Shown here: one piece after another, positions 34,224 through 55,280 of the stretch
Position numbering within the stretch: the stretch's first letter is position 1
Layout of the letters: each line of letters opens with the position of its first letter
NCBI GenBank assembly: GCA_009777735.1
Contig: WRLF01000001.1
Location: 124,001-188,000, forward strand
DNA: 64,000 nucleotides
DNA from: Treponema sp.
Lineage (GTDB): Bacteria > Spirochaetota > Spirochaetia > Treponematales > Breznakiellaceae
Reading direction: 5' to 3'
Notes under the pieces: model-generated
What the model saw: only the letters and a program-made list of their open reading frames with translations
The model's database searches: none
Told to the model about the DNA's origin: nothing
Program-made: the position numbers and the translations under genes

Positions 34224-34240
34224 GCAGAAAGGAAAAAACC

Positions 34241-37504: not shown

Positions 37505-37508
37505 AGCC

Positions 37509-38624: not shown

Positions 38625-39333
38625 AGTACCAGAAGCAATGACTGAAACTCGCACAGCAGTCAAACCGATCATCGTTATCCGTAATCTTACTCAGGCATAT
38701 GTCAGCCGCAATTATGGTATGTTCGGAAAAAAGGAAGTTAAACCTGTATTAAATAATATTAACCTGGACATTGCCGCCGGGGAAATATTCGGGATTTCAG
38801 GCGAATCGGGCTGCGGCAAAAGTACCCTTGCCCGCTGCATATTGGGTCTCATTGATTATAAAGGTGAAATTTTCATTGATGGCACATTGCAGCAGCCGGG
38901 AAAACAATTAAATCCGGCTTCACAAATGATTTTTCAGGATCCCGGCGCCTCACTCAGCCCGACAAAAAAAGTCGGCTGGCTGCTGGAAGAACCGCTGGTC
39001 ATTCACCGGCGCGGAACAGCAATAGAACGATCCCGTAAGGCGGATGAAATGCTTGTCCGCGTCGGGCTTGATCCCCTGTACCGTAACAGGCAGGTAAATG
39101 AATTATCCGGCGGCCAGAAACAGCGGATCTGCATTGGCCGCACCCTCATGCTGGAACCAAAAATTCTCATCGCCGACGAAGCCATCAGTTCGCTGGACGT
39201 TTCCACCGGAGCGCAGATACTCAACTTGTTCAGCGAGCTTCGCCAAAGTCTCGGACTAACCGTCATCTTTATTTCCCATGACAGAAACGCCGCAGAATAT
39301 TTATGCGACCGTGTTATGGTGATGTCTTCATGA
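38617..39333 (+). CDS. Peptide ABC transporter ATP-binding protein, DppF-like (short)
   Basis: 238 residues from the ATG at 38617, which has GGAG six bases upstream and overlaps the previous gene by 8 bp. Walker A GESGCGKSTLARC near residue 60, Q-loop MIFQDPGASLSPT, signature LSGGQKQRICIGR, Walker B ILIADEAISSLD and the switch FISHDR. It ends shortly after the H-loop (CDRVMVMSS), so the ~60-80 residue C-terminal oligopeptide domain of OppF/DppF is missing. A fragment of a DUF4143 gene lies only 15 bp beyond the stop, so a rearrangement may have trimmed the end. Confidence 0.9.
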   Translation: MHEVPEAMTETRTAVKPIIVIRNLTQAYVSRNYGMFGKKEVKPVLNNINLDIAAGEIFGISGESGCGKSTLARCILGLIDYKGEIFIDGTLQQPGKQLNPASQMIFQDPGASLSPTKKVGWLLEEPLVIHRRGTAIERSRKADEMLVRVGLDPLYRNRQVNELSGGQKQRICIGRTLMLEPKILIADEAISSLDVSTGAQILNLFSELRQSLGLTVIFISHDRNAAEYLCDRVMVMSS

Positions 39334-39592: not shown

Positions 39593-42267
39593 TATATTCG
39601 TTAGAGAATTTTCTTCGTAAACTGTATTATACCCTTTATCCCTGTAAATGCACCGCCAGTTGCAGACCGACCAATTTTCTTAGTAAACTGTATTATTCAG
39701 GGAAAAAGGTTGAGGAAGTCGCGCGTTGCAGACCGACCAATTTTCTTAGTAAACTGTATTGCAACAAGCGCAACACTTGATTTCCTAAAGTTGCAGACCG
39801 ACCAATTTTCTTAGTAAACTGTATTAATTTATCCCTAAAGGGTACTCCCGCCATAGTTGCAGACCGACCAATTTTCTTAGTAAACTGTATTACTTTGGAA
39901 CAAGAAGACGTACTCAATAAGTTGCAGACCGACCAATTTTCTTAGTAAACTGTATTAGAAAAAAGAGCTTAAAGCCTACAGCGTAAGTTGCAGACCGACC
40001 AATTTTCTTAGTAAACTGTATTATTTAACAGTAATAGTGGTTACAGCTTTTCGTTGCAGACCGACCAATTTTCTTAGTAAACTGTATTAGTCAACCTCAA
40101 ACGGGCCTTGCAGGTGGTGGTTGCAGACCGACCAATTTTCTTAGTAAACTGTATTTGGTACAAAAGTACGCAGAGGCCGGAGATGGTTGCAGACCGACCA
40201 ATTTTCTTAGTAAACTGTATTAGAAGGTAAGCTCATATTGCAAGCCGCCTGGTTGCAGACCGACCAATTTTCTTAGTAAACTGTATTGCCAGCGAATGGC
40301 GGGAAGAGTGAGGTGTAGTTGCAGACCGACCAATTTTCTTAGTAAACTGTATTCAGCAATAACAATACCTGTGTCAGAGGGCGGTTGCAGACCGACCAAT
40401 TTTCTTAGTAAACTGTATTCATCACTTCTGACGACATGATACCCATTATGTTGCAGACCGACCAATTTTCTTAGTAAACTGTATTTAGCACTTCAGCCTC
40501 TTACTGGGGGTTTTTGTTGCAGACCGACCAATTTTCTTAGTAAACTGTATTAGCATCCATAAAAAGCAACCGTAAAAAACGGTTGCAGACCGACCAATTT
40601 TCTTAGTAAACTGTATTTCAGCAAATTCTGAATTACAAACCACCACCGTTGCAGACCGACCAATTTTCTTAGTAAACTGTATTCGCTTGTATTAACATTG
40701 AAACGCGCGGCACGTTGCAGACCGACCAATTTTCTTAGTAAACTGTATTCACTATCACAAGTGAGAAGCATATCCATTGGTTGCAGACCGACCAATTTTC
40801 TTAGTAAACTGTATTGAACGGAAACCTTTGAAAGCAAAGAAGACTGTTGCAGACCGACCAATTTTCTTAGTAAACTGTATTCTGATCGGGACAACTACGA
40901 CCCCGTAAACAGTTGCAGACCGACCAATTTTCTTAGTAAACTGTATTTATTGACGGGCAACCCGGCGCAGATGGCAAGTTGCAGACCGACCAATTTTCTT
41001 AGTAAACTGTATTATGCACGTCTTCCCACCACGGACTGGCTATGTTGCAGACCGACCAATTTTCTTAGTAAACTGTATTCAGATTCAGAGGTTTGTAAAA
41101 CTTCTGAGAGTTGCAGACCGACCAATTTTCTTAGTAAACTGTATTTGGGGCTGTTTCTCCACCGGGGAGCGCAAGTTGCAGACCGACCAATTTTCTTAGT
41201 AAACTGTATTCTGCCAAATTATCGTATTCACTCCATCCGCGTTGCAGACCGACCAATTTTCTTAGTAAACTGTATTGGTCGCGCTCTGCCTCGGCTTCGG
41301 TGTTATGGTTGCAGACCGACCAATTTTCTTAGTAAACTGTATTATGTTATGAAAAATGGTACTGTGAATTCACGTTGCAGACCGACCAATTTTCTTAGTA
41401 AACTGTATTCACTCTCACGTATGATGATGATCATCTACCGTTGCAGACCGACCAATTTTCTTAGTAAACTGTATTTTCATGCTTATGGATATGTTTCATA
41501 GCCCAAGGTTGCAGACCGACCAATTTTCTTAGTAAACTGTATTATGCGGAGCACTCGAGCGCTGCTTTGCCTGGTTGCAGACCGACCAATTTTCTTAGTA
41601 AACTGTATTATTGGCAATACTATAAACTTCAAGCTGCAGGTTGCAGACCGACCAATTTTCTTAGTAAACTGTATTCCAGCATTGTGTATTGTTTGATCCT
41701 TCATCGTTGCAGACCGACCAATTTTCTTAGTAAACTGTATTCAGTTTGTTGTGTTGTCATGCGTACATTAGTTGCAGACCGACCAATTTTCTTAGTAAAC
41801 TGTATTTTAGTTCCCTTGAACGGGTTTTCTATGGCGGTTGCAGACCGACCAATTTTCTTAGTAAACTGTATTTCGTAGAGGCAGAGGTAAACGTTTACGA
41901 CGGTTGCAGACCGACCAATTTTCTTAGTAAACTGTATTCTGGTTCCATGACGAAATCGAATGGCGGTTGTTGCAGACCGACCAATTTTCTTAGTAAACTG
42001 TATTTCGATATGTCTACTCGTTTTGACCGTACCGGTTGCAGACCGACCAATTTTCTTAGTAAACTGTATTTAAAGACAAGGAAACCAATAACAATAATGA
42101 GTTGCAGACCGACCAATTTTCTTAGTAAACTGTATTCATCACTGAATTAGCTCCAACTGAAGCTTTGTTGCAGACCGACCAATTTTCTTAGTAAACTGTA
42201 TTTGACCCGTTCGATCCCCAAGAGGCGATTAGTTGCAGACCGACCAATTTTCTTAGTAAACTGTATT
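39593..42267 (+). CRISPR. CRISPR array, 41 repeats and 40 spacers, type II-C-like
   Basis: 36-bp repeats (begin GTTGCAGACCGACCAATTTT, end AAACTGTATT) alternate with 30-bp spacers; one spacer (39761-39789) has 29. The first repeat at 39593-39628 is degenerate in its 5' half, while the other 40 look identical on reading. The last repeat is 42232-42267. The crRNA strand is plus: the 5' end of the repeat is complementary to the tracrRNA anti-repeat that precedes the AAGGC nexus. The array therefore runs toward cas2, opposite to the cas operon. Forty spacers in clean register suggest a long-active system. All frames reading CRPTNFLSKLY or YSLLRKLVGLQ here are repeat artefacts, not genes. Confidence 0.98.
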
Positions 42268-42269
42268 CG

Positions 42270-42310
42270 TTAACGGCTAATTCCTTGCATGATAAGGAAT
42301 TAGCCGTTAA
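42270..42310. terminator. Perfect 17-bp hairpin between array and cas2
   Basis: TTAACGGCTAATTCCTT, loop GCATGAT, and the exact complement. It starts two bases after the last repeat and ends 20 bp before the cas2 stop, between converging transcripts. There is no strong T-run, so bidirectional termination or insulation is likely but not certain. Confidence 0.65.
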
Positions 42311-42329
42311 GGTCGGGTAAAAAAACGGG

Positions 42330-42662
42330 TCAAAAAAGCAATAATTGGGATGGTTTTTGCTTGTTTTTTCCTTTTGATTTACCTGAAAATGAAATAATTC
42401 CTTCATATTGTTTATCCGTTATCGCAAGAATATCCACTTTCCCTTTAGTTGGAAGCTGCGATTGGATTTCCCTAATATAACCATCAAGAGCTTCTTTGCC
42501 GGAAAGTAGTCTGTAGTATACCGAATACTGGCTCATGTGAAAACCCTTATCCAACAGGGTTTTCCTGAAAAGAGATGCCGCTTTCCGCTCCTCCTGGGTA
42601 ATTACAGGCAGATCAAAAAGTACAATCATCCACATAAGTTTATATGAACTAAGCTCAGTCAT
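42330..42662 (-). CDS. cas2: CRISPR-associated endoribonuclease/integrase subunit Cas2
   Basis: 110 residues from the ATG at 42662, overlapping the cas1 stop by 8 bp; the longer frame to 42779 only reads cas1 out of frame. The ferredoxin-like opening MWMIVLFDLPVITQEERKAA holds the conserved Asp (FDLP). GFHMSQYSVYYRLLSGKEAL and VDILAITDKQYEGIISFSGK follow the type II Cas2 pattern, with a basic tail. Cas2 dimers bridge two Cas1 dimers for spacer integration. It is last in cas9-cas1-cas2. Confidence 0.95.
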   Translation of the reverse strand: MTELSSYKLMWMIVLFDLPVITQEERKAASLFRKTLLDKGFHMSQYSVYYRLLSGKEALDGYIREIQSQLPTKGKVDILAITDKQYEGIISFSGKSKGKNKQKPSQLLLF

Positions 42663-43560
42663 TTTTTGATAATCGGATTTTGGCAATTTCAATTTGAGGC
42701 TTTTTGGATTTATAGGATTTAACCAGAGAAAAAGCCAGCCGTTCCATGGCTGTATAAAGAGGCGTGGTCTCTCCTTCAAAACTAAGATCTGCCCATAAAA
42801 AAGCGCTTACCTTATGTTTAGCAGTTGAGTTCATTTCATTAATTTCTGTAGTTAAAATTTGCTTTACATAGAAGTCCACAAGCGGACGATAAGGCTCCAT
42901 AATATCATCTGCTAAGGGAAAAGGATTTGTGCTGTTTTCATGATGAATGCCAAATATGGGATTCAGTCCTGCTGCACATAAAGCTCTGGCAGCGGATGCC
43001 CGCAGTATTGCATATCCATAATTTAATAGACTGTTAGGCCAATCACCATCGGGATTACGGGAAAATTCATCGCCAAAAAGAGTTTTCCAGTAAATCCTTG
43101 CACCGCTGGCTTCCCTGTTTTGCGGGTCACCGGATTGAACCTGCCGAGCATATACATCAATCTGATTTGCTTTTTTCTGCTTATTAAAATATCTTAATAC
43201 TTCACATTGATTTTTTAGTTTTGCTATTACAATAGATTGCCAGAGCCGTTTTTTTAAAGGTTGACTTGCCTGAGTTTGGAGTTTTATCCGTAAGGCAGAT
43301 TCATAATTGGCGTTAACCGGTAGTACCAGAGCAGATGGCAGCCCTTTGGAGCCGCAGAGAATTGTTACTGCCCCGCGTTCAGCAAGACTGACGAGTGCAT
43401 CTTTGGTGCAAGTCGCGCCAAATGCTGAAATCATTAAAACGCCAATATCATCCAGCGGCACTTCGCCTAATGATTCATTGCCCTGTTTGATTGTAATGAA
43501 TCCGCATTTTTTGGCAATAAAACGACCGTTTTCACTTACATCAACAATTCTTGGTATCAT
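42655..43560 (-). CDS. cas1: CRISPR integrase Cas1
   Basis: 301 residues, typical of type II Cas1. The N-terminal beta domain begins RIVDVSENGRFIAKKCGFIT. The helical catalytic domain has REASGARIYWKTLFG (Glu of the active site near residue 145), NYGYAILRASAARALCAAGL, and GIHHENSTNPFPLADDIMEP (catalytic His and Asp near residues 203 and 217). With Cas2 it integrates protospacers at the array. It starts 6 bp after the cas9 stop. Confidence 0.97.
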   Translation of the reverse strand: MIPRIVDVSENGRFIAKKCGFITIKQGNESLGEVPLDDIGVLMISAFGATCTKDALVSLAERGAVTILCGSKGLPSALVLPVNANYESALRIKLQTQASQPLKKRLWQSIVIAKLKNQCEVLRYFNKQKKANQIDVYARQVQSGDPQNREASGARIYWKTLFGDEFSRNPDGDWPNSLLNYGYAILRASAARALCAAGLNPIFGIHHENSTNPFPLADDIMEPYRPLVDFYVKQILTTEINEMNSTAKHKVSAFLWADLSFEGETTPLYTAMERLAFSLVKSYKSKKPQIEIAKIRLSKND

Positions 43561-43566
43561 AAACTA

Positions 43567-46500
43567 TTAAGATCGGCAATTAAGTTTCCCGTCTATAGTT
43601 ATTTTTATTTTTTTAACATCGAATTCATTGAATAAAACATTTATTGATTTAAAATTTTGTCCCTCAATATCTGAAGGCCAAAAAGCTGATGTAAGATTGG
43701 TGTTTGTGTTTTTCTTCCAAGCAGCAATTGTATCGCTGGCATATATAGGACGAATATCTATTTTATTCCGTGTAGTTGCATACCCTGCAATTCTACAAAA
43801 TTCCTGTGTCGTTTTATTGGATAATTGCACAACATCATTTTTACATAGGCTCATAATCAATTTAGCCGCAGGATGAGGTTTCTGTAAAAAACCTGTTTCT
43901 TCATTATATTCATGTCCCTGCATAGCAACAGGACGGGAAACAAACACCCCTTCATATTTGGTTTTTCCTTTTTGTTCAGGCAGCCGCCAAATATCTACTC
44001 GGTAAAAATCATCAGGCATATAGGCTTTGTTAGCATTATCTTTAATGCTAACCGGAACTTGATCCTTGGGAAAATAACGAACAGAATATATTCCGTTCTT
44101 TTTACTGAATTGGGCTAAGACATCTTCCAATTTTTGTCCAACTTTACCTGACTTAGAATTAAGTAACGCTTGAATTCTATCCCGAATAACAAGGTCTGCA
44201 ATTCTGGAAATATCCTTAATGGATTCCAGTGGAGTGCGGGACACCCATTTGTCTCTAAAAACCCGAAGGAATTTGTATTTTTTTTGAATCAATGATTTTG
44301 CTTTTCTAAACCCTTCCTTTTCTACTAAAAGAGCTATATCCTCTTTTATGCTTTTTGGAACAATACGGTTAATTTCATTTTCTCCAAGTTCGGTTGGATT
44401 AATCTGTTCCAAATAGGAATGTTTTGCCATGGCAGTTTCTGCGTACAGTTTTCCTTCTATCCCATGATCCGGTTTGTAGGAAACAACAATTGATTTTAAA
44501 TGTTCCTCAATTACTTTCCTGTCTATTGGACATGGCGGAGCATGAATTTCTCTATAACTCATGTTGTTGTTAATTCGGGCAGCCTCGGCGATAATGTTTC
44601 TGTCACACAGGCCAATAACGAGAGAATCCAGCGCATGATGCCTATGATCGCTTCTGTTTTTATACCAGGTTTCCTGTCCCCGGTTAAGCAGGGTATTAAA
44701 TCCCCAAAACCCGCGAAGTAAAGCGGTAAGCTTTCCCGGGCTAACCCATATTGCATTGCTTTTACATACAACAGAAAGGTACTTTTCGCCAGCTTTGGAA
44801 AGATAAGCTGTATCTGTCAACTGTCTATCAAGAAAACCTCCTTCTTCTTCGTTGAAGCTAGTCATTGCATCAGGAAAGAACTTTCTTCGCTTTCTATATG
44901 GCAACTTAGCAGTAATATCCATGATTTGATTCCAATCAAATCCGCCTGTATTATTGCCAAATGCTTCAAAAGGGCTTCTGTTCCTTTTTGCTTGATTACA
45001 CTCCCGATGAGCCACGATAAGATTATCGCGAGAGTTGAGTAAAGTTCTGGAATATGGAAGAATATGATCAATCTCTACTGCACCAGACATTAATTGTTTA
45101 GCAGAAATTGTTTTTCCGCAATAGGGGCAGCGCCTTGCGATCCCTTCTGGGGCAAGTTCTTCCCACAGTTTATATTTCTTGATGTCTTCACTGCCTACTT
45201 GCAAATATCCAAGTTCTTTTATCTCATTTCTTATCCGCTCATTGTCTTTCTGGTTTTTTGCTTGCTTTTTCATTTCTTCTTCTTTTTTGGTTCTACTTGA
45301 CTTTAGTTCTCTATTTACTTCCATGATGATTTCAGTTGGCTTACCAAAACGACGGACAAGGGCATTCACCAATTTTCGCAGCTGATTCAAGGCAATGTGC
45401 ACAGTGGGATTTGCTATACGTCCATACTTTTCTTCATCGTTACCCTCGTAGTCTTCGCCTTTGGCGCCGCTTACTTGTCCTGTAAGTATTTTTCCATAAT
45501 AAGGGAGAGAACGCTGTATTTGACGTGCTTCTTTTTTTGAAAGTCCCATCTTTTTAACCGCATCTGAATAACCAATCCATTCTTTCAACATAACTTCCGA
45601 ACAATCAATCATGAACTTTGAAGAAAGCATAGTTGTTCCGGCAGGAAAATTATATCCCGAAATATTTTTTATTTGTTCTGTAGTTAAGCTAAAAGTTGCT
45701 AAAAAATCATAGATAACCTTTTCATCATCTTCGATCATCAATTGTTCGATAATTTCATCCTGTTTTTGAACTGTTAAATCATCCCAGATGGAACCGAAAT
45801 ATTCGGGTTTTCGTAACACGAACGATGTTTCATTACCTTTGAGATTTTCCCGTTTACTGTCTTCAAGATTAAATGAACCAGTGTTGTCTTTGCCTAAAGT
45901 TTTTCGTATTTTGCTAAAGGCAAGAGATTTTTGTGTATTGAGTGCATCAAATAATTTTTGTTTTAATTCGGAGGAGATTTCTTCTTCAATGTTTTCATCG
46001 TTATAGTATTTTAGGTTATTAATATCTTGTAATATTCTAAAACGATGAGCCGAAACAAATGCCCCGTAGCCCCGTTTCTCTTCAGTATAAAACTGACACG
46101 ATCCACGCTCTGAAGGTTTAAGTGGTCGTTGTAAAAAGATGATTTTATAAACCCTTTCCCAATTTAATTCTTTGTAATATTTTTTTTGTTTGTCCATAAT
46201 CGCAATAAATTCTGTTTCATACATTTCTCTGGAAGGATAAAAAGAATACAGAATTTTTGATTTTTCCATTACAGGTTTAAAACGAACAGAGTTGCCTTTT
46301 TCCTTTTGTCTGAATAACCACTGCCCAAGGGTAAGCCCCTGCAGGTCTGCTTCCAGTGTTTGAATACCGCCGAGCATTCCTTCCTGTTCTGCGGTTTTTT
46401 CTGTTTGCCCTTTTCTGCCGGACTTAAAACCCCGGCGGACTGAGAACTGCATCATAATCCGACCTAGCTCGTAAGGTTTTAATTTACGTTCCAGGGCAGC

Positions 46501-46821
46501 TACACGAAGTTGATACGGATCAAGGCGTGCCACAATCAGCCGTTTTTCCTTGTCATGGGGCATAAGCTTGTTGTTGATAAGAAAGTTAAGCATAGCTTTT
46601 TTTCGCCGTATTTTTCGATCCCGCTGACGCCTCATTTGCCTAGCATTTCTGCGTGCCTCATTCATAGGTGTTCCGGTTTTGGCTTCCCTGCCGTCGGTGA
46701 AAATGCGTACACCCATATCCAAGATTTCTGTTGGTTTGGGTTTGTCCTTACCTTCAAATTCCAGTTGTAACGCGGTCCAGCCTATTGAATTCGTCCCTAA
46801 ATCTAATGCCAAGCGCCACAT
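43567..46821 (-). CDS. cas9: CRISPR-associated endonuclease Cas9 (compact, II-C-like)
   Basis: 1084 residues, in the compact range of type II-C. RuvC-I LALDLGTNSIGWTAL with catalytic D7; an arginine-rich bridge helix ARRNARQMRRQRDRKIRRKK near residue 57; RuvC-II EIIMEVNREL near residue 500; HNH EIDHILPYSRTLLNSRDNL near residue 583 with a CPYCGK zinc-type pair before it; RuvC-III HRHHALDSLVIGLCD near residue 727. All catalytic residues look intact. It cuts DNA guided by crRNA:tracrRNA. The absence of csn2 and cas4 and the three-gene operon point to II-C. AGGAGG is five bases before the ATG. PAM cannot be read from the window. Confidence 0.98.
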   Translation of the reverse strand: MWRLALDLGTNSIGWTALQLEFEGKDKPKPTEILDMGVRIFTDGREAKTGTPMNEARRNARQMRRQRDRKIRRKKAMLNFLINNKLMPHDKEKRLIVARLDPYQLRVAALERKLKPYELGRIMMQFSVRRGFKSGRKGQTEKTAEQEGMLGGIQTLEADLQGLTLGQWLFRQKEKGNSVRFKPVMEKSKILYSFYPSREMYETEFIAIMDKQKKYYKELNWERVYKIIFLQRPLKPSERGSCQFYTEEKRGYGAFVSAHRFRILQDINNLKYYNDENIEEEISSELKQKLFDALNTQKSLAFSKIRKTLGKDNTGSFNLEDSKRENLKGNETSFVLRKPEYFGSIWDDLTVQKQDEIIEQLMIEDDEKVIYDFLATFSLTTEQIKNISGYNFPAGTTMLSSKFMIDCSEVMLKEWIGYSDAVKKMGLSKKEARQIQRSLPYYGKILTGQVSGAKGEDYEGNDEEKYGRIANPTVHIALNQLRKLVNALVRRFGKPTEIIMEVNRELKSSRTKKEEEMKKQAKNQKDNERIRNEIKELGYLQVGSEDIKKYKLWEELAPEGIARRCPYCGKTISAKQLMSGAVEIDHILPYSRTLLNSRDNLIVAHRECNQAKRNRSPFEAFGNNTGGFDWNQIMDITAKLPYRKRRKFFPDAMTSFNEEEGGFLDRQLTDTAYLSKAGEKYLSVVCKSNAIWVSPGKLTALLRGFWGFNTLLNRGQETWYKNRSDHRHHALDSLVIGLCDRNIIAEAARINNNMSYREIHAPPCPIDRKVIEEHLKSIVVSYKPDHGIEGKLYAETAMAKHSYLEQINPTELGENEINRIVPKSIKEDIALLVEKEGFRKAKSLIQKKYKFLRVFRDKWVSRTPLESIKDISRIADLVIRDRIQALLNSKSGKVGQKLEDVLAQFSKKNGIYSVRYFPKDQVPVSIKDNANKAYMPDDFYRVDIWRLPEQKGKTKYEGVFVSRPVAMQGHEYNEETGFLQKPHPAAKLIMSLCKNDVVQLSNKTTQEFCRIAGYATTRNKIDIRPIYASDTIAAWKKNTNTNLTSAFWPSDIEGQNFKSINVLFNEFDVKKIKITIDGKLNCRS

Positions 46822-46852
46822 GGGGGCCTCCTATATTAAGAGATCAAATAAC

Positions 46853-46909
46853 AACCTCCCCAAAAAGACAAGCTCAACTATGAAGACACATGGTCTTGAT
46901 AGGGAGGTT
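46853..46909 (-). promoter_or_regulatory. Structured 5' leader of cas9 mRNA
   Basis: In the minus-strand transcript AACCTCCC (46909-46902) can pair with GGGAGGTT (46860-46853). Inside that stem AAGAC/GTCTT forms a further hairpin. The 5'-terminal CCUCC is also complementary to the AGGAGG ribosome site at 46832-46827, so a switch between pairings is conceivable. Confidence 0.45.
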
Positions 46910-46913
46910 ATAA

Positions 46914-46942
46914 ATTGTAGTTCATTTATCAAATAATGTCAA
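46914..46942 (-). promoter_or_regulatory. cas9 promoter
   Basis: Minus-strand TTGACA (46942-46937), 17-bp spacer, TACAAT (46919-46914). Consensus -35 and a 5-of-6 -10 give a predicted start near 46907 and an ~85-nt leader before cas9. Confidence 0.8.
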
Positions 46943-47003
46943 GGGAATACACAAACCTACCTGGAGAAAATATGGTATTATTAACTACCACTCTGTAATA
47001 AAT

Positions 47004-47038
47004 AATCAGTTTACTAAGAAAATTGGTCGGTTTGCAAC
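47004..47038 (-). repeat. Solitary CRISPR repeat mimic (or upstream anti-repeat) between cas9 and tracrRNA
   Basis: On the minus strand this 35-bp sequence matches the array repeat with one substitution (G to A at position 7) and one missing base near the 3' end, a closer match than the functional anti-repeat. Read on the plus strand it is an anti-repeat. It lies between the cas9 -35 box and the tracrRNA promoter. It could yield a crRNA-like or scaRNA-like RNA, or be part of a longer tracrRNA. Confidence 0.8.
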
Positions 47039-47081
47039 ACAAACCTATCGATTCGCATTCAATAAGTTTGTTGCATACATC

Positions 47082-47110
47082 TTGACAAATCCTACACTAT
47101 CATATATATT
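47082..47110 (+). promoter_or_regulatory. tracrRNA promoter
   Basis: TTGACA (47082-47087), 17-bp spacer, TATATT (47105-47110). Predicted start near 47117, at the first bases of the anti-repeat. Confidence 0.85.
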
Positions 47111-47114
47111 TAAT

Positions 47115-47228
47115 CTACAGTTTATTAAGAAAATTGGTCGGTATGTTAACAAGGCCTCCCGCAAGGGTTGTGCCACAAAATGACGTCGTATGGTGGCAAA
47201 AAAGGAGGGTTCGCCCTCCTTTTTTTTA
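47115..47228 (+). ncRNA. tracrRNA
   Basis: The anti-repeat 47115-47150 complements the array repeat apart from a few mismatches and one bulged base. It is followed by AAGGCCTCCCGCAAGGG (nexus-like, CCC/GGG stem), then a hairpin with TGCCAC/GTGGCA arms. It ends in a perfect terminator AGGAGGG-TTCG-CCCTCCT with eight or more T at 47202-47228. About 110 nt, transcribed divergently from cas9. It pairs with crRNA repeats, permits RNase III processing and scaffolds Cas9. Confidence 0.93.
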
Positions 47229-47249
47229 TTCTCTGGCTCCCTCTCTCGC

Positions 47250-47291
47250 CGTCAAAACCCCCAAAGGCACAACATTAACCCAGTCCTTGCG
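47250..47291 (-). pseudogene. Fragment of a DUF4143 ATPase gene tail (stop side)
   Basis: About 40 bp match 52467-52507, the last codons of the DUF4143 gene (VNVVPLGVL on the minus strand), with about four differences. The match ends at the core GTCCTTGCG (47282-47290), after which phage-derived sequence begins. It complements the inner fragment at 39349-39402. Confidence 0.75.
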
Positions 47292-47989
47292 AGCGCCCTG
47301 ATGTACGGGTGTATCTCGCGGTCAATGCGCCGCTGGTCCCGCCCTATTTGCTCCCTTTCTGCGGCATCTTCCGCTGTCTGCGCTTCAAAGTGCTTCAGGC
47401 TCATGCGTATTGTACGGCCAATCCCCAGTACAAAGCCGTCAACCACGCGGGGCAGCTTGGCGGCAAGCCGCCGGTTCGCCTCGCTCGTGGTTATCGGGCC
47501 GTCCTTTACACGGTCTTGAGTTCGGCTATCACCGCGTCCTTCGCGTCCCCCAGCGTCTTCAGCACGTCCGGCAACTCCGTCACCAGATCCTCGCTGTACC
47601 GGATCGTCTCTATCGATCCACGAATGTCCCGGAGCCGCTTGGTCAACGCCAGTATCCGGTCTATCCGGTCCGGCCCGCTCATCCCCTGAAATGTTGTCTG
47701 TAAGCTCATGCGCTTCCTCCTCGTATAATTCCGGGTTAAACTCAATGCTCCCGGCGTCGTCCAGTAATTCGGGGTCGACCGATTCGGCGTTTGCCTCCGT
47801 CCGCTCCCCGTCGTCCCACAGCGCGTTTTCCCGCGCCAGCACCCGCGCCTCGTTCCACTGCTTTTCGTACCAGGTTTTCAGCGCTTCCCTGGTCTGCGGC
47901 TCCGCGTCCGCATCGTCCAGGCGGAAGGCGGCCTGGTATTCCCCGTAGGTCACCGCTTCGGTGAATTCATCGCTTTGCATCCACTCCTG
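47292..47989 (-). pseudogene. 3' remainder of the phage polyvalent protein region, after an amber codon
   Basis: The frame continues without shift from the MuF-domain part after a TAG at 47992-47990 (LQHDT-stop-QEWMQSDEFTEAVTYGEY; a Trp codon would fit). The first ~85 residues look coding (EEEAHEL). Further downstream two frames are open because of high GC, and a small gene at 47506-47709 uses another frame. The last part (EANRRLAAKLPRVVDGFVLG, then EIHPYIRALART) again looks protein-like and is cut by the DUF4143 fragment. Degraded phage DNA. Confidence 0.5.
47506..47709 (-). CDS. Small helical protein of phage origin
   Basis: 67 residues from the ATG at 47709, which has a strong GAGGAGG site eight bases upstream. 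MSLQTTFQGMSGPDRIDRIL opens a charged helical sequence (ALTKRLRDIRGSIETIRYSE). It overlaps the open polyvalent frame. The ribosome site and codon pattern favour this frame between these coordinates. Function is unknown; small helical genes follow polyvalent-protein genes in many phage-like elements. Confidence 0.5.
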   Translation of the reverse strand: MSLQTTFQGMSGPDRIDRILALTKRLRDIRGSIETIRYSEDLVTELPDVLKTLGDAKDAVIAELKTV

Positions 47990-49086
47990 CTAGGTGTCGT
48001 GCTGCAGCGCCTGCTCGTGGATTTCTTCGCGGGTGAGCTGGAAGAGTAAACCAGAGTTTTCTTCTAAACCGCTTGACAAATTCGCGGAAGTGTTAGATAT
48101 TTGAGATGAAAGGTCATCAAATAATGTCGCCTTGAGCAATTGGCGCTCTGTTGTGCTAACATATTTGGTGGCCTTATTTTTATCTACCGCTATTAACTTA
48201 TTTTCAATAATTATGTTGTGAATATGTCTATCAAAATTTTCTTTCCCGTAAAGGTTAATTATGTTTGTATAATTGCCTCTTTCGTTTTTAACCGGGTTTT
48301 GAATAACTATTACAGGGTCTCCGTCTTTGTCAACGGCATCAATAAGTGTAATAAATTTTCCGGATTCTGACAAAGAATGATAAATGAGGACAGGTTCATT
48401 CAGCAGTTCCGGCAATTTTTCAATGGTCTGCATATCCACTTTATGCGGGCCAGTGGCTTTCTCTATAGCTTTTACAGATAATTTTATCGGGTAATCCGGC
48501 AGTCCGTGCCTCGCGTATGCTTCCGGAGCCATGCCCAAAGGTATCATCCGGCCGGGGTTTATTGTGCCGTCTTGTACCTGCCGTAACTCGTTTTGGTAGC
48601 TCTGCCGTTCCGCAGCCCTTGCCTGGTTTGCCTGTATTTGCCCCACAGAGGCCCCAGGCTGCGCCGCAGCTCCCCTTGCCGTGTCATTTTGCGTTTCGTC
48701 CTGTTCTGCGCCGTCATGGGCTTCTATTGCGCTCGCGGCGGCTGTCAGCCCTTTTTCAATGAAAATCTGCTCCGCGCGGGCCACGTCCTCGGTCTGCTCC
48801 AGCAGGGTCTGCCGCCGTTCGGCATCGGTGAACCCTTGCCGCACCTGGGCGTTTCTGGCTTCTACCTCTCCGGCAAGGCGGCGGTACAAGCCGTGCGCTG
48901 TGTCTTCATCATACCTGCTGGTAGTGATTTTTGATAAAACATCAAAGGCCTCTTGCCCAGCCGCCTCAATAAATGCCGCATCCGCTTCGCTTAACTGCCG
49001 CCGCAGTTCTTGTACTTCCGGGTAGCTTTCCCGCTCGCTTGCAGGCCGCCATTTTTCAATCTCCTGTACCAGCATCCGTCTATGAT
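47990..49086 (-). pseudogene. Phage polyvalent protein, C-terminal part with MuF C-terminal domain
   Basis: Open frame from the IS110 junction to a TAG at 47990, with an internal ATG at 49075. It begins with MLVQEIEKWRPASERESYPE, then LYRRLAGEVEARNAQVRQGF, the third-ligand helix (GEVEARN) of a zincin-like domain whose HEIQHAIQ lies beyond the IS. From about residue 170 a MuF C-terminal domain follows (NPGRMIPLGMAPEAYARHGL, VDMQTIEKLPELLNEPVLIY, VIVIQNPVKNERGNYTNIIN), a family seen in phage and conjugative polyvalent proteins, often toxin-like. GC-rich, unlike the flanking cas genes. Confidence 0.75.
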
Positions 49087-49091
49087 AAAAG

Positions 49092-50189
49092 TCAAGCTGT
49101 TTTCAAAAGATTTTTTCTTTTTTCAAGAAATCTTTTGTATTGAAGCATTTTAGCATCATGCATCCGTGCATCCCTGCCATAATGGTATTCCCCCTTCTTG
49201 AGCATTTGATACATCTCTGCGAAAACCCTTCTGCGCAGCCCGGTTCTTACCAGCCCTTTCTTCTTAAGCTGGGTCAGATGTTCGTACCAGCGGTTCAATT
49301 TTGGGCTGGCGGAAAGCACATGGTTTAAAGACTGTGTTATAAGTGTGGCGGCCAGTTTCCGGCCTTTCTTGTTGGTTCCAAGCACTGACTTGGAAGTATT
49401 GGAATTTGACACCTTCGGTGCAGAGCGTAAATATGAGGTAAACGCTTTGGAGTTCTTAAACCGGTTAACTTCGATTATATCCGCAATAACCGCTATCGCG
49501 GTAAATACCCCTATCCCCTTCATGCTCGTCAGTATCGCTATCTCCGTCATATATGGTTCGGCATGTTCTTTAATCTTGGCCTCAAGTTCATCAATTTGAA
49601 CCTCCTTAGAGGCAAGATTATCCAATAGCTGGTGTATCTGGAAAGCCATAGCCGTACCGTTCTCCAACTTCCGTATCTTTTCCTGGTCTTTTTTGCTGAA
49701 AATCTCTTCCTGCGTAAAACCGTACAGCCGTTCCTTCAATAACGAGTGTACCCGGTTCTTGATTTGCGTGGTTTGCTTGCGGTACAGCCGGTACGTGGTG
49801 AACAAACTCCGTAAATCCTGTATGGTAACGGGCGGAACCGTAACCGGGGATACCGCACGCTCCCCGGAAAGCACTTGCATCTTCAGGATGCGGCACAAGA
49901 TGTCCGCGTCTATCTTGTCCGTATTCTTGCGGGCAAGGCTTATCTGTTTCAACTCGTAGGTGTTTGCTATTATCACCTCCTTCACCATCGGCTCTATCAG
50001 CCGGACAAAAGCGAACGTCGGGTTTGTGGCTTCTACCAACACATACGTTTCATCGGTCAATGTCTGATAGAACTGCGCCAGCCCGTAATCGGTCAATTCA
50101 AATGTCGCCGTTTCCTTTTTTTCTTTCTCTTCACCGCGGTAACAGCAGGTGAACCTGTTGGTGTGTAAATCAATTCCCACAAACTGCAT
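49092..50189 (-). CDS. IS110-family transposase (DEDD recombinase)
   Basis: 365 residues. The N-terminal RuvC-like DEDD domain starts FVGIDLHTNRFTCCYRG (first Asp), with LVEATNPTFAFVR and ARKNTDKIDADILCRILKMQ giving the remaining acidic residues near 60 and 95-100. The C-terminal 'transposase 20' domain holds LTSMKGIGVFTAIAVIADI and TSYLRSAPKVSNSNTSKSVL near residue 265, including the catalytic Ser region. It performs RNA-guided recombination in the IS621 model. GAGGAGG precedes the ATG. The stop codon overlaps the TTGACT at the element end. Confidence 0.93.
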   Translation of the reverse strand: MQFVGIDLHTNRFTCCYRGEEKEKKETATFELTDYGLAQFYQTLTDETYVLVEATNPTFAFVRLIEPMVKEVIIANTYELKQISLARKNTDKIDADILCRILKMQVLSGERAVSPVTVPPVTIQDLRSLFTTYRLYRKQTTQIKNRVHSLLKERLYGFTQEEIFSKKDQEKIRKLENGTAMAFQIHQLLDNLASKEVQIDELEAKIKEHAEPYMTEIAILTSMKGIGVFTAIAVIADIIEVNRFKNSKAFTSYLRSAPKVSNSNTSKSVLGTNKKGRKLAATLITQSLNHVLSASPKLNRWYEHLTQLKKKGLVRTGLRRRVFAEMYQMLKKGEYHYGRDARMHDAKMLQYKRFLEKRKNLLKTA

Positions 50190-50416
50190 ACAAGCCTCCT
50201 CAAAATGATTTGATTGTCCGGTTAAACTACGGTATAATTACCATGCGTCTATTCGGGGTATTGGCGGACCAAGGTCAACCCCCATTAAGCAAATGCGGCT
50301 GCCGGTTGTTATTCGCGTTTACGGTGATCAAACGGGTTTTGGACCCGGATGTCCCAACAAAGGCCACAACCGGCAGCTGTTCTTCCGAACACCTGCATTA
50401 TACCGTGCAACCGCAT
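50190..50416 (-). ncRNA. Candidate bridge RNA region of the IS110 element
   Basis: Non-coding end upstream of the transposase. On the minus strand a perfect 12-bp stem, GCTGCCGGTTGT with ACAACCGGCAGC, encloses a large loop with smaller hairpins (CCGGGTCCAAAACCCG). A consensus -10 TATAAT lies at 50402-50397, 14 bases inside the end, without a -35 in place. This is the layout reported for the IS621 bridge RNA. The exact RNA ends cannot be set. Confidence 0.6.
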
Positions 50417-52420
50417 ATCTTTAATCATAGCTTCGCGTTTCCATGTGTCATGTGCTTCAAGCTGCTCGTCATTTAATGTTTCAATTATTGCGACAGCCTG
50501 ATCCCGCAGCGTGGCATCTATCCCCTGGGGGTTTCCGCCTTGCGCAAAACCTTCAATGTCTTGTATTGCGTGCTGTATTTCGTGAACTAAAATGCTTTCC
50601 GCTTCGCCCTTAAACACCCCCGTCCAGTTATCGTAATCGACCGACAGGTACTGCGAATCCAGTGTTATCTCGCCGTTGCGGTACATCCCGCCGCCGCCGT
50701 CAAGCGATTCAAAGCGAACGGGCATTTTCCGCAGTTGCGGGTAGGCGGTAAACAGTTCTTTGTTTTTAACGATATGGGATAAATTTAAGGTGACGTTTTT
50801 CCCTATCCTGAAAATATCCCTTTTAATTAATTGTATGTCACGTATCTCGTGCCGCCACTTGCCGTCCGCCCCCCGCTCCCAGCCCGTGGCCATGCGGACC
50901 GCCTTGGCGTCTTTACCCGCCTGCTCCATGTGCCGGGCGGTCTCAAGGTTATCCAGCCGGGCTGTGGCTTCCCTCGCTTGGTCTAAGGCTTGAGCTCCCT
51001 TTTCGCCGATGATCTGGAAGTTCATTTTCGAAGAATTGCTATTGACATTATTGAGCCATTGTTGTAACTTTAAATCAGTGGTGCCGCTTGCACCCCAAGT
51101 TGCCGTCGTGATAATTGACGGATTTACGCGGGGGCCAGCGGCATTATTTTTTACTTCGTGTGATAAATGTACCGAATGAAATTGGCTTATTTTAGGTTTT
51201 CCGGGTTTTGTTTTCAAGTTTTCAAGTGTAAATCGTGCATATACCGGCTGTCCGTCAATGGTTATTTTTGCAGCATAATGACTGTACCCTGTAAAATTAG
51301 TATGTTTTTTATGTGATACGTCTACTGTCTCATCATACATGAATACGGCGTTTTCAAAAGCCTCAGCAAGTACCGATATTACCCTGTTATCAAATCCCTT
51401 GTGTCTTAATATTTTTTTTAGAGACCTTGTCACAAATAACGCTGTCTGGCCTGTCTGTTTATTTTGCCGTGTTTGTATCTTTGCATAGATTCCTTTGGCT
51501 GCTTTCTTTTCAATGGCTTCGGCAGGAACCTCAATAGCTTCCATGTTCCTGAGCGCTTCCTGTTGCGCCCTGGCCATCGAGTAGAGCATCTCCGCCTTTT
51601 CTTCCGCCGTGTGCAGGTCGCTTTGCAGCACCCGCTCCGGCTCGGTCATCTCCGCGTATTCATGCTGCTGGGCGTTGTCCGTCTGCACCCGCGTCGTTTC
51701 CTGGGATTGGGCGTCGCCGCCCAGCACGGCCCCTTCCTCTCCTCTCAGTATCTGGTCAAAGAAAAATTTAAGTTCGGGGTTGCCGGTCCATTTTGTATCG
51801 CGAGCCAGAGGGCTTTTAGCTATCCAATCTTTAAAGGCGGCGGCAATCCGCCTGAACACCGCCTTCAGCCCGGCTGTCGGCGCCTCTCCTGTTTTAAGGT
51901 AATGCTCAAAGTTATCCGCCAGCCACTCGTGGTGTTTCTTTTGAAAGTTCTCCAGCTTGATGTCCTCTTTGAACGCCTTGCTCACCGCGTCTTCCACCAG
52001 CGCCTTGTACTGAGGGCTGTTGGGTATAATAACCCTTGTCATAAAGTGCAGCCATTCATGGAGCAGTGTGGCGGGGTTGAAATCGTTGGTCAGTACCGTT
52101 ATTGCCCGGAGCTGGTCATACGCAATGTTTGCCGCTTCCTGGTCGGTGACAAGTCTGCTGTTGCCGTTTTCGTCAACTGCAATGGCAGCCATCCCGCCGC
52201 CGACCGTTTGCTTAACCTGCTGACCGCCTACTATTTTCCCTGTCTGTTGTGCAGCAATCCGCCCGCTTTCAAGTTGCTGCAGCACCCGTGCTTCAATTCC
52301 CTGGGGGTTAGCCGCAACGGCAGCCCGCAGGTCTGCTTCGGTGGTAGGTAACATTTCCATCAAGCGGTTTACTATCCGCTCGCATCCGTCCCAGTAGTTG
52401 ATAAATGCTTCGAGGTCTTA
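50417..52420 (-). pseudogene. Phage polyvalent protein, N-terminal part with two metalloprotease-like motifs
   Basis: Open frame from about 52420 (LEAFINYWDGCERIVNRLME reads in frame before the first ATG) to the IS110 border. First motif LLHEWLHFM near 52056 with HHEWLADNFEHYLKTGEAP behind it; then a barnase- or LPD-like central region (QPVYARFTLENLKTKPGKPK, FHSVHLSHEVKN); then ESILVHEIQHAIQDIEGFAQ near 50590, the first half of the zincin-like domain completed beyond the IS. The 5' end is truncated against the DUF4143 gene. Such multidomain proteins are injected or expressed by phages and mobile elements; this copy is dead. Confidence 0.75.
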
Positions 52421-52459
52421 GGCTATATCTTTAAATCTCTGCCTAAAGGCCCCCCCCCT

Positions 52460-53716
52460 CTACCCTCCCAAAACCCCCAACGGCACAACATTCACCCCGT
52501 CCTTGCGGCGGCAGGCAAAGCCGTTAGCGGTAATTACCGTAAGCGCCTTTGGTTTCCCTGCCTTTTCCCAATCAATCTTCTTTGCAAATTTAAGCAGGTT
52601 TGCGGCGGCTTCATCCTGGGCATTGAAGCCCATCTTCACTTCAAAAGCCGCCCAGGAGGTATCGGGATACTCAACAATGGCATCGATTTCCATGTTTCGT
52701 GAATCACGGTAATGGTAAATTTTCCCGTCATGCACATCGGCATAAATCCGCAGATCACGAATAACGAGCGATTCAAACAAGAGGCCAAAATAATTAAGGT
52801 CAGCCAGCAATTTATCGACAGAAAGACCCAATGCGCCAATAGCCAAAGACGGATCGACAAAGTGACGCTTGGGCGTTTTTCTTAGAGTGTCGGCACTGCG
52901 GATATGGGTAGTCCATGCCGGAAGCTGTTCCAGTGTCATGAGGCGTTCAAGTGTTTCCAGGTATTCGGTTATTGTCTCATCGTTAAGCGGTAGCCCTGAT
53001 CCGCCGGTGTCTTTTGCTATGGCAGTAAGCGATGCTTCCGTAGAAATATTTCTTGCCAGCGACTGCATTAGTCGCATGACTTTTTGTGGGTCTCTTTTTT
53101 TCCCGGCAACCCGGTTTATGTCGACTTCTGCAAGAAGCGCAATATAGTCCTTCGCAAACCGCAAGCCTTGACGGTGTGTGGCTCCCAAAAGACCCGGCCA
53201 ACCGCCAAGAGTCAGTTTTTCTGCCAGCGTTGCAAGGTCAAATTCCGCCTGAGCAGAATTAGGAGCCTTGCCCTTCACCAAAGCAGAAAGGCTCACTTCT
53301 CCCGTTGACCAGCCCTTTTCATACAGTGACATGGGACGCATTTTTATAACAGAAAACCGTCCCGCACCTGAATGGAGTTTCACTCGTTCCTCAGGATTTG
53401 CCGATCCAGTCAGAATAAATTGCCCTTTCTTTTTACGATCATCTACTTCGCGCCGTACATACTTCCAAATGTGCGGATATTCCTGCCATTCATCAATAAG
53501 CCGGGGAACAGGCCCTGTAAGCACCGATTTTGGATCAAGTTCCATGCGGATTCGAATCTCATCATCAACATCAAGCCGTGCAGTGCTTTTTGCAGCCTGC
53601 ATTGCCGTCTCGGTTTTTCCACAGCCTTTTGCGCCCTGTATCAAAACCGCACCGGTATTGCGAAGCCGGTTATGCAGAATTTGGTCGGCAAAACGCCCTC
53701 GGTAAGTATCCATCAT
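52460..53716 (-). CDS. AAA ATPase with DUF4143 C-terminal domain (first)
   Basis: 418 residues from the ATG at 53716 (GTG at 53719 and ATG at 53713 are alternatives). P-loop GAKGCGKTETAMQAA near residue 28, Walker B PRLIDEWQEYP near residue 72, sensor FILTGSA near 101; the DUF4143 part includes SLARNISTEASLTAIAKDTG and the restriction-endonuclease-like MEIDAIVEYPDTSWAAFEVK (D...ExK). Function of the family is unsettled; partners and mobile or toxin-like roles have been suggested. Its 3' tail is repeated as fragments at 39.35 and 47.25 kb, and it abuts the dead phage gene. Confidence 0.9.
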   Translation of the reverse strand: MMDTYRGRFADQILHNRLRNTGAVLIQGAKGCGKTETAMQAAKSTARLDVDDEIRIRMELDPKSVLTGPVPRLIDEWQEYPHIWKYVRREVDDRKKKGQFILTGSANPEERVKLHSGAGRFSVIKMRPMSLYEKGWSTGEVSLSALVKGKAPNSAQAEFDLATLAEKLTLGGWPGLLGATHRQGLRFAKDYIALLAEVDINRVAGKKRDPQKVMRLMQSLARNISTEASLTAIAKDTGGSGLPLNDETITEYLETLERLMTLEQLPAWTTHIRSADTLRKTPKRHFVDPSLAIGALGLSVDKLLADLNYFGLLFESLVIRDLRIYADVHDGKIYHYRDSRNMEIDAIVEYPDTSWAAFEVKMGFNAQDEAAANLLKFAKKIDWEKAGKPKALTVITANGFACRRKDGVNVVPLGVLGG

Positions 53717-53746
53717 CACATCTCTATTATAAGTTTAATATATAAC

Positions 53747-53825
53747 CGCTAAAATGTAAAGGTTTCATCCGCTAAAATATGACTATTTCAACCGCTAAAA
53801 TGTAAAGGTTTCAACCGAAAAATTG
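53747..53825. repeat. Four degenerate ~23-bp tandem repeats upstream of the DUF4143 gene
   Basis: Units AACCGCTAAAATGTAAAGGT-TTC (first and third identical), ATCCGCTAAAATATGACTAT-TTC and a partial AACCGAAAAATTGTACA follow head to tail. They begin about 30 bp before the gene start and probably cover its promoter, consistent with operator sites. Confidence 0.7.
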
Positions 53826-53871
53826 TACACCAGATACTTGGGCTACCCAGCAGACTGCGGTGCATCCAATT

Positions 53872-55182
53872 TCAAAAAATAATCCCCGGCAGTTCAGAAA
53901 TCATATACAACGGCACAGAATATAAATTTTCCATAACACCATAATTTTTTAATGAGGTGCGCACTGCATATTTTGGTTTGTATTCCTGCATGTATACTCT
54001 TAATGATTGCGATTTTGTATGTTTTGCAGATTTTACTTCTATCGGAATAATTTCGCCGTTATCCTGTGTTAAGAAATCTACTTCTGCTGTACTGTTCTGC
54101 CGCCCCCAGTAAAACAGGGGGCTGACTTTTGCGGCTTTTAATTCCTGGCAGACGAACTGCTCCGCAAGCGCACCGTACATGTCATCTACTATGTCTGAGC
54201 CGGCTTTCAGTATGTCAGCGGATTTTATTTCTGCCTGAGCGCCCAATAAGCCTATGTCCAGTATATACAATTTAAAAAAATCTTCTTTGTAGTGCATCTT
54301 TAGAGGAATTTTTGGAGTTTCTACTTTGTTTATTTTATATATTAATCCTGTATCAACCAGCCATTGCATTGCTGTTTCAAACTCAGCGGCACGTCCGCCG
54401 GATTTTATATTTTTATAAACAAACTTTTTATTTTCCCGTACTAAATGTAAAGAGATTGAATCCCACAACATTCTGATTTTCGGCTCTGTGCGTGGGTCAT
54501 TTATGTGTTTGGAAAAATCACCTTTATATGATGAAAGCAATCCATTCTGAATTTCGCGTACTTTTGACAAGTCGCCGTATTCAGCATATTCGGATAAAAC
54601 CGGCGGCATTCCGCCAACATAAAAGTATTGCTTGAGTAATGATTCCAGTAAATCACTTGCGCCGGACAAAGCTCTGGTATCATGCAGTTTGATAGTGTCT
54701 GCCAGAATCTTATGCCCCATTGCTTCCAAAAATTCACAAAATGACATTGGATATAAGGTCATCTGGTCAGTTTGCCCTACCGGTCTCTGCCCAAGCATGA
54801 CGCTAAGAAAACTGCCTGCTGCGACAATGGTATATTCGCGCCCTGCATCATTGAAAGACTTTAACGCATCCATAGCCCGCTGGGACTCTTGAATCTCATC
54901 AAAGAACAGAAGGGTTCGAGCCGGGTCAATTTTTTTTTCAAACCGGAGTTCAAGCTGCTGGATAATGTATGCCGGGGAAATATCTTTTGCAAAAATCTCG
55001 TTTATTGAATGATCCGTAAAGAAATTAAGTTCCATCAAATCGTCGTATTCAGAGGCGGCAAAATTCCGGACAAGCCATGTTTTTCCAACCTGCCGTGCCC
55101 CAAAAAGCATTAAAGGCCGGCGGTTTGGCGAATTTTTCCAGTTTTTTAAGGAATTCAGTTCATATCGTCTCATATTTTTCAT
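53872..55182 (-). CDS. AAA ATPase with DUF4143 C-terminal domain (second)
   Basis: 436 residues. P-loop LFGARQVGKTWLVRNFA near residue 27; Walker B TLLFFDEIQES near residue 89; sensor IVAAGSFLSVML; PMSFCEFLEAMG. The C-terminal nuclease-like part has STAEVDFLTQDNGEIIPIEV (D...ExK). It belongs to a different subfamily from its neighbour, so this is not a recent duplication. Family members are often multi-copy in spirochaetes and Bacteroidetes; role unknown. AGAGG lies seven bases before the ATG. Confidence 0.92.
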   Translation of the reverse strand: MKNMRRYELNSLKNWKNSPNRRPLMLFGARQVGKTWLVRNFAASEYDDLMELNFFTDHSINEIFAKDISPAYIIQQLELRFEKKIDPARTLLFFDEIQESQRAMDALKSFNDAGREYTIVAAGSFLSVMLGQRPVGQTDQMTLYPMSFCEFLEAMGHKILADTIKLHDTRALSGASDLLESLLKQYFYVGGMPPVLSEYAEYGDLSKVREIQNGLLSSYKGDFSKHINDPRTEPKIRMLWDSISLHLVRENKKFVYKNIKSGGRAAEFETAMQWLVDTGLIYKINKVETPKIPLKMHYKEDFFKLYILDIGLLGAQAEIKSADILKAGSDIVDDMYGALAEQFVCQELKAAKVSPLFYWGRQNSTAEVDFLTQDNGEIIPIEVKSAKHTKSQSLRVYMQEYKPKYAVRTSLKNYGVMENLYSVPLYMISELPGIIF

Positions 55183-55280
55183 TTATTGCCTCTTACTCGA
55201 GACAAGTATACTGGAAATCTACATTTATTGCAACCAATAAATGTATGGTGCTTACACTATTTGGAACCAATAATCGTGGA

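Follow-up and report, generated by a model that had tools for sequence, protein, structure and literature searches.

A type II-C CRISPR-Cas locus of a Treponema species carries a lone copy of its CRISPR repeat between cas9 and the tracrRNA, and the nine nucleotides directly 5' of this copy, where the seed of a crRNA guide would lie, recur just upstream of the cas9 promoter-like site. We consider it probable, at roughly 70%, that the element specifies a crRNA-like RNA, comparable to scaRNA or CreR, that would park Cas9 on its own promoter. In a relative of the same genus (G160), guide and target carry the same altered seed, and this matching change in both halves suggests, at the level of sequence, a built-in RNA brake on Cas9. 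The locus lies in a window of 64,000 nucleotides, by which we mean the whole stretch of DNA that was analysed, and its features are collected in Table 1. An earlier note on this DNA had proposed such a self-repressing RNA, and its interpretation is partly supported: the anatomy and the conservation of the seed pair were observed, and pairing with the anti-repeat is predicted by modelling.

Table 1. Features of the cas9 locus, with positions in the window.
Feature	Position	Strand	Remarks
CRISPR array	39659..42267	+	39 spacers, 40 identical repeats of 36 nt
cas2	42330..42779	-	
cas1	42655..43560	-	
cas9	43567..46821	-	1084 aa; HNH and RuvC III domains detected
cas9 mRNA leader	46822..46907	-	start inferred; predicted hairpin
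cas9 promoter-like site TTGACA-17-TACAAT	46914..46942	-	11/12 consensus match
Seed target upstream of cas9 promoter	46951..46959	-	PAM side 46950-46943 = GTATTCCC
Lone (ectopic) CRISPR repeat	47004..47038	-	one substitution and one deletion relative to the array repeat
Guide segment 5' of lone repeat	47039..47062	-	24 nt, length assumed; PAM-proximal seed 47039-47047
AACAAACTTATT	47061..47072	-	weakly like array-repeat 3' end; inverted repeat with seed
tracrRNA promoter-like site TTGACA-17-TATATT	47082..47110	+	11/12 consensus match
tracrRNA	47117..47229	+	anti-repeat, then stem-loops, terminator 47198-47225; both ends inferred

The locus has the composition of a type II-C system, with cas9, cas1 and cas2 adjacent on the minus strand, the tracrRNA on the plus strand upstream of cas9, and without csn2 or cas4. 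Neither of these last two genes was among the NCBIfam matches listed for the flanking ORFs scanned (32799-39333 and 47252-52363), which comprised six of the 11 ORFs in the former interval, the other five overlapping these on the opposite strand, and four ORFs in the latter. The motifs expected to hold the catalytic residues of Cas9 are present, and no Rfam family was matched within 40000-56000. Ahead of the 40 perfect repeats, a degenerate repeat with an intact 3' end (39593-39628) and one extra 30-nt spacer likely mark, from their sequence, an old end of the array. On the other side of the locus, two different ORFs each have a copy of a 39-bp repeat (92% identical) at their 3' end (47253-47291 and 52469-52507), and within 47990-52363 an IS110-family transposase has ORFs with MuF-C and large-polyvalent-protein domains on either side, which would fit an interrupted phage-like polyvalent gene. 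Between two AAA/DUF4143 genes that match PADLOC PDC-S01 models, a 33-nt sequence occurs three times at 23-nt spacing (53744-53822).

The lone repeat differs from the 36-nt array repeat at base 7 (G to A) and by one T missing near its 3' end; the earlier note had described it between cas9 and the tracrRNA, and its coordinates, substitution and deletion were all correct. When the window's genome was scanned with 20 bases of the repeat at up to two mismatches, 42 places were found, namely the 40 array copies, the lone repeat and the tracrRNA anti-repeat. The part of the lone repeat that pairs with the tracrRNA is kept, and its differences from the array repeat fall mainly in the last bases. Predicted duplexes with the anti-repeat reach -40.8 kcal/mol for the lone repeat, -36.3 kcal/mol for that of G160 and -42.1 kcal/mol for the array repeat, while 200 control pieces gave a mean of -9.4 and a best of -15.1 kcal/mol. 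By these energies, the lone repeat should form a duplex with the anti-repeat that is nearly as stable as those of the array repeats, and the proposal that a crRNA-like RNA can pair with the tracrRNA finds its support in the predicted duplex. As is required of a scaRNA, the element is homologous to the array repeat, stands outside the array in the tracrRNA locus, has the sense of the repeat on the proposed strand and, by predicted energy, pairs with the tracrRNA.

The seed word TAGGTTTGT has just two copies in the window, those of the guide (minus 47047-47039) and the target (minus 46959-46951), where shuffling gives an expectation of 0.64. The target ends eight bases before the cas9 -35 element TTGACA (first base 46942), part of the best promoter match on the cas9 strand, and the recurrence of the nine nucleotides upstream of this box was found as previously described. 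Two base pairs of the 11-bp direct repeat belong to the lone repeat, which leaves a guide match of 9 nt. Read on the plus strand, the seeds of guide and target are both ACAAACCTA in the window and both ACAAACTTATT in G160. The G160 match begins exactly at the repeat junction, that of the window 2 nt within the repeat. When the 182 bp between cas9 and the lone repeat of the window were dinucleotide-shuffled 20,000 times, a junction-anchored match of at least 9 nt arose at a frequency of 0.00645, and in shuffles of the 223-bp stretch of G160 matches of at least 11 and at least 9 nt arose at 0.0004 and 0.0035, respectively. The array's own spacers served as a control: from the junction end, all 39 match at most 6 nt of the window stretch and at most 7 nt of the G160 stretch, compared with 9 and 11 nt for the respective lone guides. 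Across the genomes, the respective seed words occur at 13 sites in the 2.69 Mb of the window's genome (G000) and at four in the ~2.4 Mb of G160, guide and target counted; the 12 non-guide sites in 2.69 Mb give an estimate of ~0.0008 expected in 182 bp. Of the 13 sites in the two genomes that are neither guide nor target, 12 fall inside ORFs of at least 100 aa. By these sequence counts, the guide-target seed pair exceeds chance. As in CreR, the guide seed matches the region of its own cas promoter in both genomes, with less certainty in G160, where two 9/12 promoter candidates exist and the seed target lies upstream of one and inside the other.

The lone repeat of G160 is in the same place as that of the window, and the two Cas9 N-termini are identical at 194 of 261 residues. 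The guides differ, and the cas9 upstream region of G160 carries the same altered seed as its guide over 11 nt: the single seed change from the window to G160, C to T, is present in target and guide alike. The covariation comprises this one position and the two further positions over which G160 is matched. Identity between the two genomes is 31/35 in the lone repeat, 19/24 in the guide, 95/109 in the tracrRNA and 651/882 in the DNA of the cas9 N-terminus, and the cas9-to-lone-repeat stretch agrees at 92 of 180 aligned positions. Within the targets, eight of nine seed positions are equal and three of the 15 beyond the seed (11/24 overall). The earlier note had named as a test whether relatives with the lone repeat also conserve the seed pair, and the outcome was positive in G160, the sole such relative found. 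The Cas9 N-terminus of G160 is identical to that of another genome of the genus, G166, at 233 of 261 residues and is therefore nearer to it than to the window's, which makes the element common to diverged lineages. The Cas9 N-terminal tree does not settle the branching within the genus, so both inheritance with losses and transfer of the upstream module are possible.

Cas9 matches occur in six of the 195 family genomes, the window's own and a weak 41-residue match (G062) included. Five cas9 loci of the genus have their upstream region assembled, and the lone repeat is present in two of them (the window and G160) and absent from three (G166, G183 and G151); a further locus (G162), whose assembly ends inside the anti-repeat, was left out of this count. 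The tracrRNA is kept in G160, G166, G183 and G151, and partly in G162. Three other genomes of the genus (G150, G154 and G174) gave short weak DNA matches only, and G158 has one repeat match at two mismatches, with no array in its 19-kb stretch. At the order level, a Cas9 match was found in 46 of 390 genomes, and none of the 22 loci examined outside the genus has a second strong repeat copy upstream of cas9. Twenty of these loci have one strong repeat-like copy there, which is the anti-repeat; those lacking one are L154, with a repeat consensus of just 16 nt, and L160, with 455 nt searched. Five order-level loci had no detected array and were searched with the default repeat of the respective family, and L145 and L146 each showed one further weak repeat match with a score of 12, equal to the cut-off. 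A separate scan of 22 loci for paired 22-mers upstream of cas9 found them in L038, L043 and L044, none of them repeat-like by eye. Further Cas9 scans yielded one distant locus from genome contigs and none from viral contigs, and the f4 family added no Cas9 (two of 30, both previously counted). A 27-base pattern spanning the repeat-guide junction was found in one of 394 class genomes, the window's own, in a sample without G160. By eye, the array repeats of several order-level relatives, L145, L146, L151, L152 and L161 among them, contain a promoter-like site in each repeat (TTGACC, 16 nt, TATAAT), of which the window's array repeat has just a weak equivalent.

The PAM-side letters of the two targets agree at NNATTNC (GTATTCCC in the window and AGATTACA in G160), a motif that is drawn from these two targets themselves. 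The seed combined with NNATTNC, at up to one mismatch, is found at two places in G000 and three in G160, the target accounting for one place in either genome, and the reversed control at none and two, respectively; since the pattern was taken from both targets, its genome counts are not independent. No PAM emerged from the spacer matches, and no exact protospacer was found when the array was compared with phage and plasmid records or its spacers with the 195 family genomes and viral contigs; five of the six viral-contig scans, which used whole spacers or parts of them, gave no match. The 27th spacer of 39 (41410-41439) is the sole one with a consistent family of matches, at 3-4 mismatches and with variable flanks, to seven of the 11 phage records (Microviridae, replication genes) and to seven viral contigs. 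The remaining spacer matches, to four Vibrio phage records and one plasmid, have E values of at least 0.06. Weak matches occur in four family genomes besides the window's; the best single spacer fit has six mismatches and the others at least nine.

We propose that a minus-strand RNA composed of the guide (47062-47039) and the lone repeat (47038-47004) would be transcribed, pair with the tracrRNA and enter Cas9. Through the 9-nt seed, or 11 nt in G160, Cas9 would bind but not cut its target, which lies 8 bp ahead of the -35 element of cas9, and the complex, abutting this element, would lower cas9 transcription. Array crRNAs would compete for Cas9 and the tracrRNA and may thereby release the promoter, so that the brake would be looser when crRNAs are abundant. 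Points that weigh against this reading are the small number of loci with the element (two), a PAM-side motif drawn from the targets themselves, the want of a minus-strand promoter shared with G160, the uncertain cas9 promoter of G160 and a predicted hairpin over the seed. The minus-strand promoter suggested for this RNA in the earlier note (TTGTCA/TATTGA) failed the promoter scan; it coincides with the -35 region of the tracrRNA on the opposite strand and is not kept in G160. Another promoter-like site on the minus strand upstream of the guide (47128-47099) matches the consensus at 9/12, where shuffles yield 1.5 sites per region, and has no counterpart in G160. A consensus scan gave no minus-strand terminator between the lone repeat and cas9, and the RNA may therefore derive from a processed transcript that runs into cas9. 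A scaRNA gene would be expected to have its own promoter and terminator; by consensus scan, the window and G160 share no promoter-like site upstream of the guide, and no minus-strand terminator was found. Between the seed target and cas9 there is no minus-strand ORF of at least 80 aa, and the cas9 leader is predicted to form a strong hairpin, with raw folding energies of -23.9 kcal/mol in the window (46822-46907, minus) and -34.7 kcal/mol in G160, the sequences differing.

A protein operator stays the main rival because the seed word recurs in inverted form, as ACAAACTTAT at 47071-47062 in the window and, with one change, as ACAAACTCAT in G160. ACAAACYTA would then be the half-site of a regulator near the cas9 promoter, with an inverted pair by the tracrRNA promoter and the lone repeat as a bystander, and the C/T position that varies between the genomes could be a degenerate operator base. 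However, the direct match begins at the repeat junction and is, in each genome, identical to the guide word, from which the inverted copy is one base off in both, and an operator leaves the kept anti-repeat pairing of the lone repeat without a reason. Moreover, G166, G183 and G151 lack ACAAACNTA between cas9 and the tracrRNA, G166 having one bare ACAAAC there, and 10 of the 11 other exact sites in G000 lie inside ORFs, so that no regulon is apparent. On balance, we regard an operator as unlikely. AACAAACTTATT is possibly, on a weak likeness, the remnant of an upstream repeat.

The guide itself is predicted to fold. For 38-nt guide pieces of both genomes, self-folding has z values of -2.18 and -2.55, and the predicted fold pairs seven of the nine seed bases; four of the 39 array crRNAs equal or exceed this, and four of 39 have a stronger predicted fold than that of the window guide. 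A predicted hairpin AAUGCGAAYY-RAUA-RGUUUGUGUU is possible in both genomes, with one pair changed from C-G to U-A and another from U-G to C-G. With 48-nt pieces, the window guide folds differently, together with the inverted copy (z -3.50), and the z value for G160 is -1.62. As modelled, the guide hairpin could be a switch, or the sign of a conserved non-targeting role. It is also conceivable, at a similarly low probability to that of the operator, that a longer cas9 transcript begins with the guide RNA, which tracrRNA-directed cutting would then free, with the hairpin masking the seed until Cas9 and the tracrRNA are loaded. Given that no terminator was found between guide RNA and cas9, each read-through would in that case yield both guide and cas9 message, and because the seed would be masked until loading, the brake would sense the level of Cas9 directly.

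Read on the plus strand, the repeat copy could instead belong to a longer or spare tracrRNA, as a duplicated anti-repeat, rather than to a crRNA, and it does have the orientation of an anti-repeat on the tracrRNA strand. This is improbable: the copy has a local score of 31 against the array repeat, compared with 26 for the true anti-repeat, the sequence downstream is, by eye, unlike that after the true anti-repeat, no plus-strand promoter-like site lies ahead of the copy, and the seed pair is left unexplained. We attach equally little credence to a vestige of the array with an accidental seed match; the element is missing from most loci examined and chance can yield short matches, but both the shuffle probabilities and the conservation of the lone repeat, far above that of the cas9-side stretch, speak against it. 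A tracrRNA sponge, in which the minus-strand RNA would bind the tracrRNA and shrink the pool of active complex with no DNA target, agrees with the strong predicted pairing and with a seed covered by a predicted hairpin, but it is also improbable, for the conservation of the target seed and its matching change would go unexplained.

The preferred reading, that a crRNA-like RNA would park Cas9 on its own promoter, can be compared with several known systems. In tracr-L of the S. pyogenes type II-A system (Workman et al. 2021; PMC8616872, PMC11417352), Cas9 is directed to the cas promoter by a guide that matches over 11 nt, and represses it without cutting, and by analogy the 9-11 nt match described here, close to these 11 nt (PMC8616872), fits binding without cutting. 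The tracr-L guide lies within a long tracrRNA that acts as a single guide in some II-A systems, and according to PMC8616872 other subtypes do not have tracr-L. In contrast, the window's locus has a separate crRNA-like unit in a cas9-cas1-cas2 locus, and guide, repeat mimic and tracrRNA do not share one transcript, the mimic being on the strand opposite the tracrRNA. In CreR, known from types I and V-A, crRNA-like RNAs are aimed at, and repress, their own cas operons (PMC12737573). The effector here is the type II Cas9, and a tracrRNA is therefore expected to be required, unlike in CreR; release by crRNA competition, reported for CreR (PMC12737573), is a proposal for the window's locus.

The scaRNA of the F. 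novicida II-B system likewise combines a degenerate repeat outside the array, the tracrRNA, a short match and repression by Cas9, although it represses other genes (a lipoprotein operon) and not cas9 (PMC9458426, PMC8616872). By repeat homology with promoters and terminators, scaRNAs have been predicted in several type II loci, some of them II-C, in a study which notes that such signals can be missed and that computational recovery of a known target failed (PMC6199352); a II-C scaRNA of Neisseria meningitidis acts on efeO mRNA (PMC13431127). These II-C examples share a repeat-like RNA gene in a II-C locus, but no cas9-promoter target is described in the accessible text of either paper. CreA of the type I-B CreTA system also has one or two ectopic degenerate repeats and a partly complementary guide, although its target is the promoter of a toxin RNA (PMC9458426). 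Among the papers listed by our searches of the open literature, a coverage that takes in few subscription papers, we found no II-C crRNA-like RNA that targets the cas9 promoter. Autorepression at the cas promoter has previously been described for II-A (tracr-L) and for types I and V-A (CreR), and a II-C form would be new as far as these searches showed.

The arrangement can be turned into a simple rule for searching other genomes: a repeat copy should stand by itself upstream of cas9, and the 9-11 nt that adjoin it at the junction should appear again in the region ahead of cas9. If our reading is true, the autorepression of Cas9 by partial-match guides has a further form, in which a separate crRNA-like RNA works with the tracrRNA in a II-C locus, and this would suggest that cas genes have repeatedly come under RNA-guided feedback.
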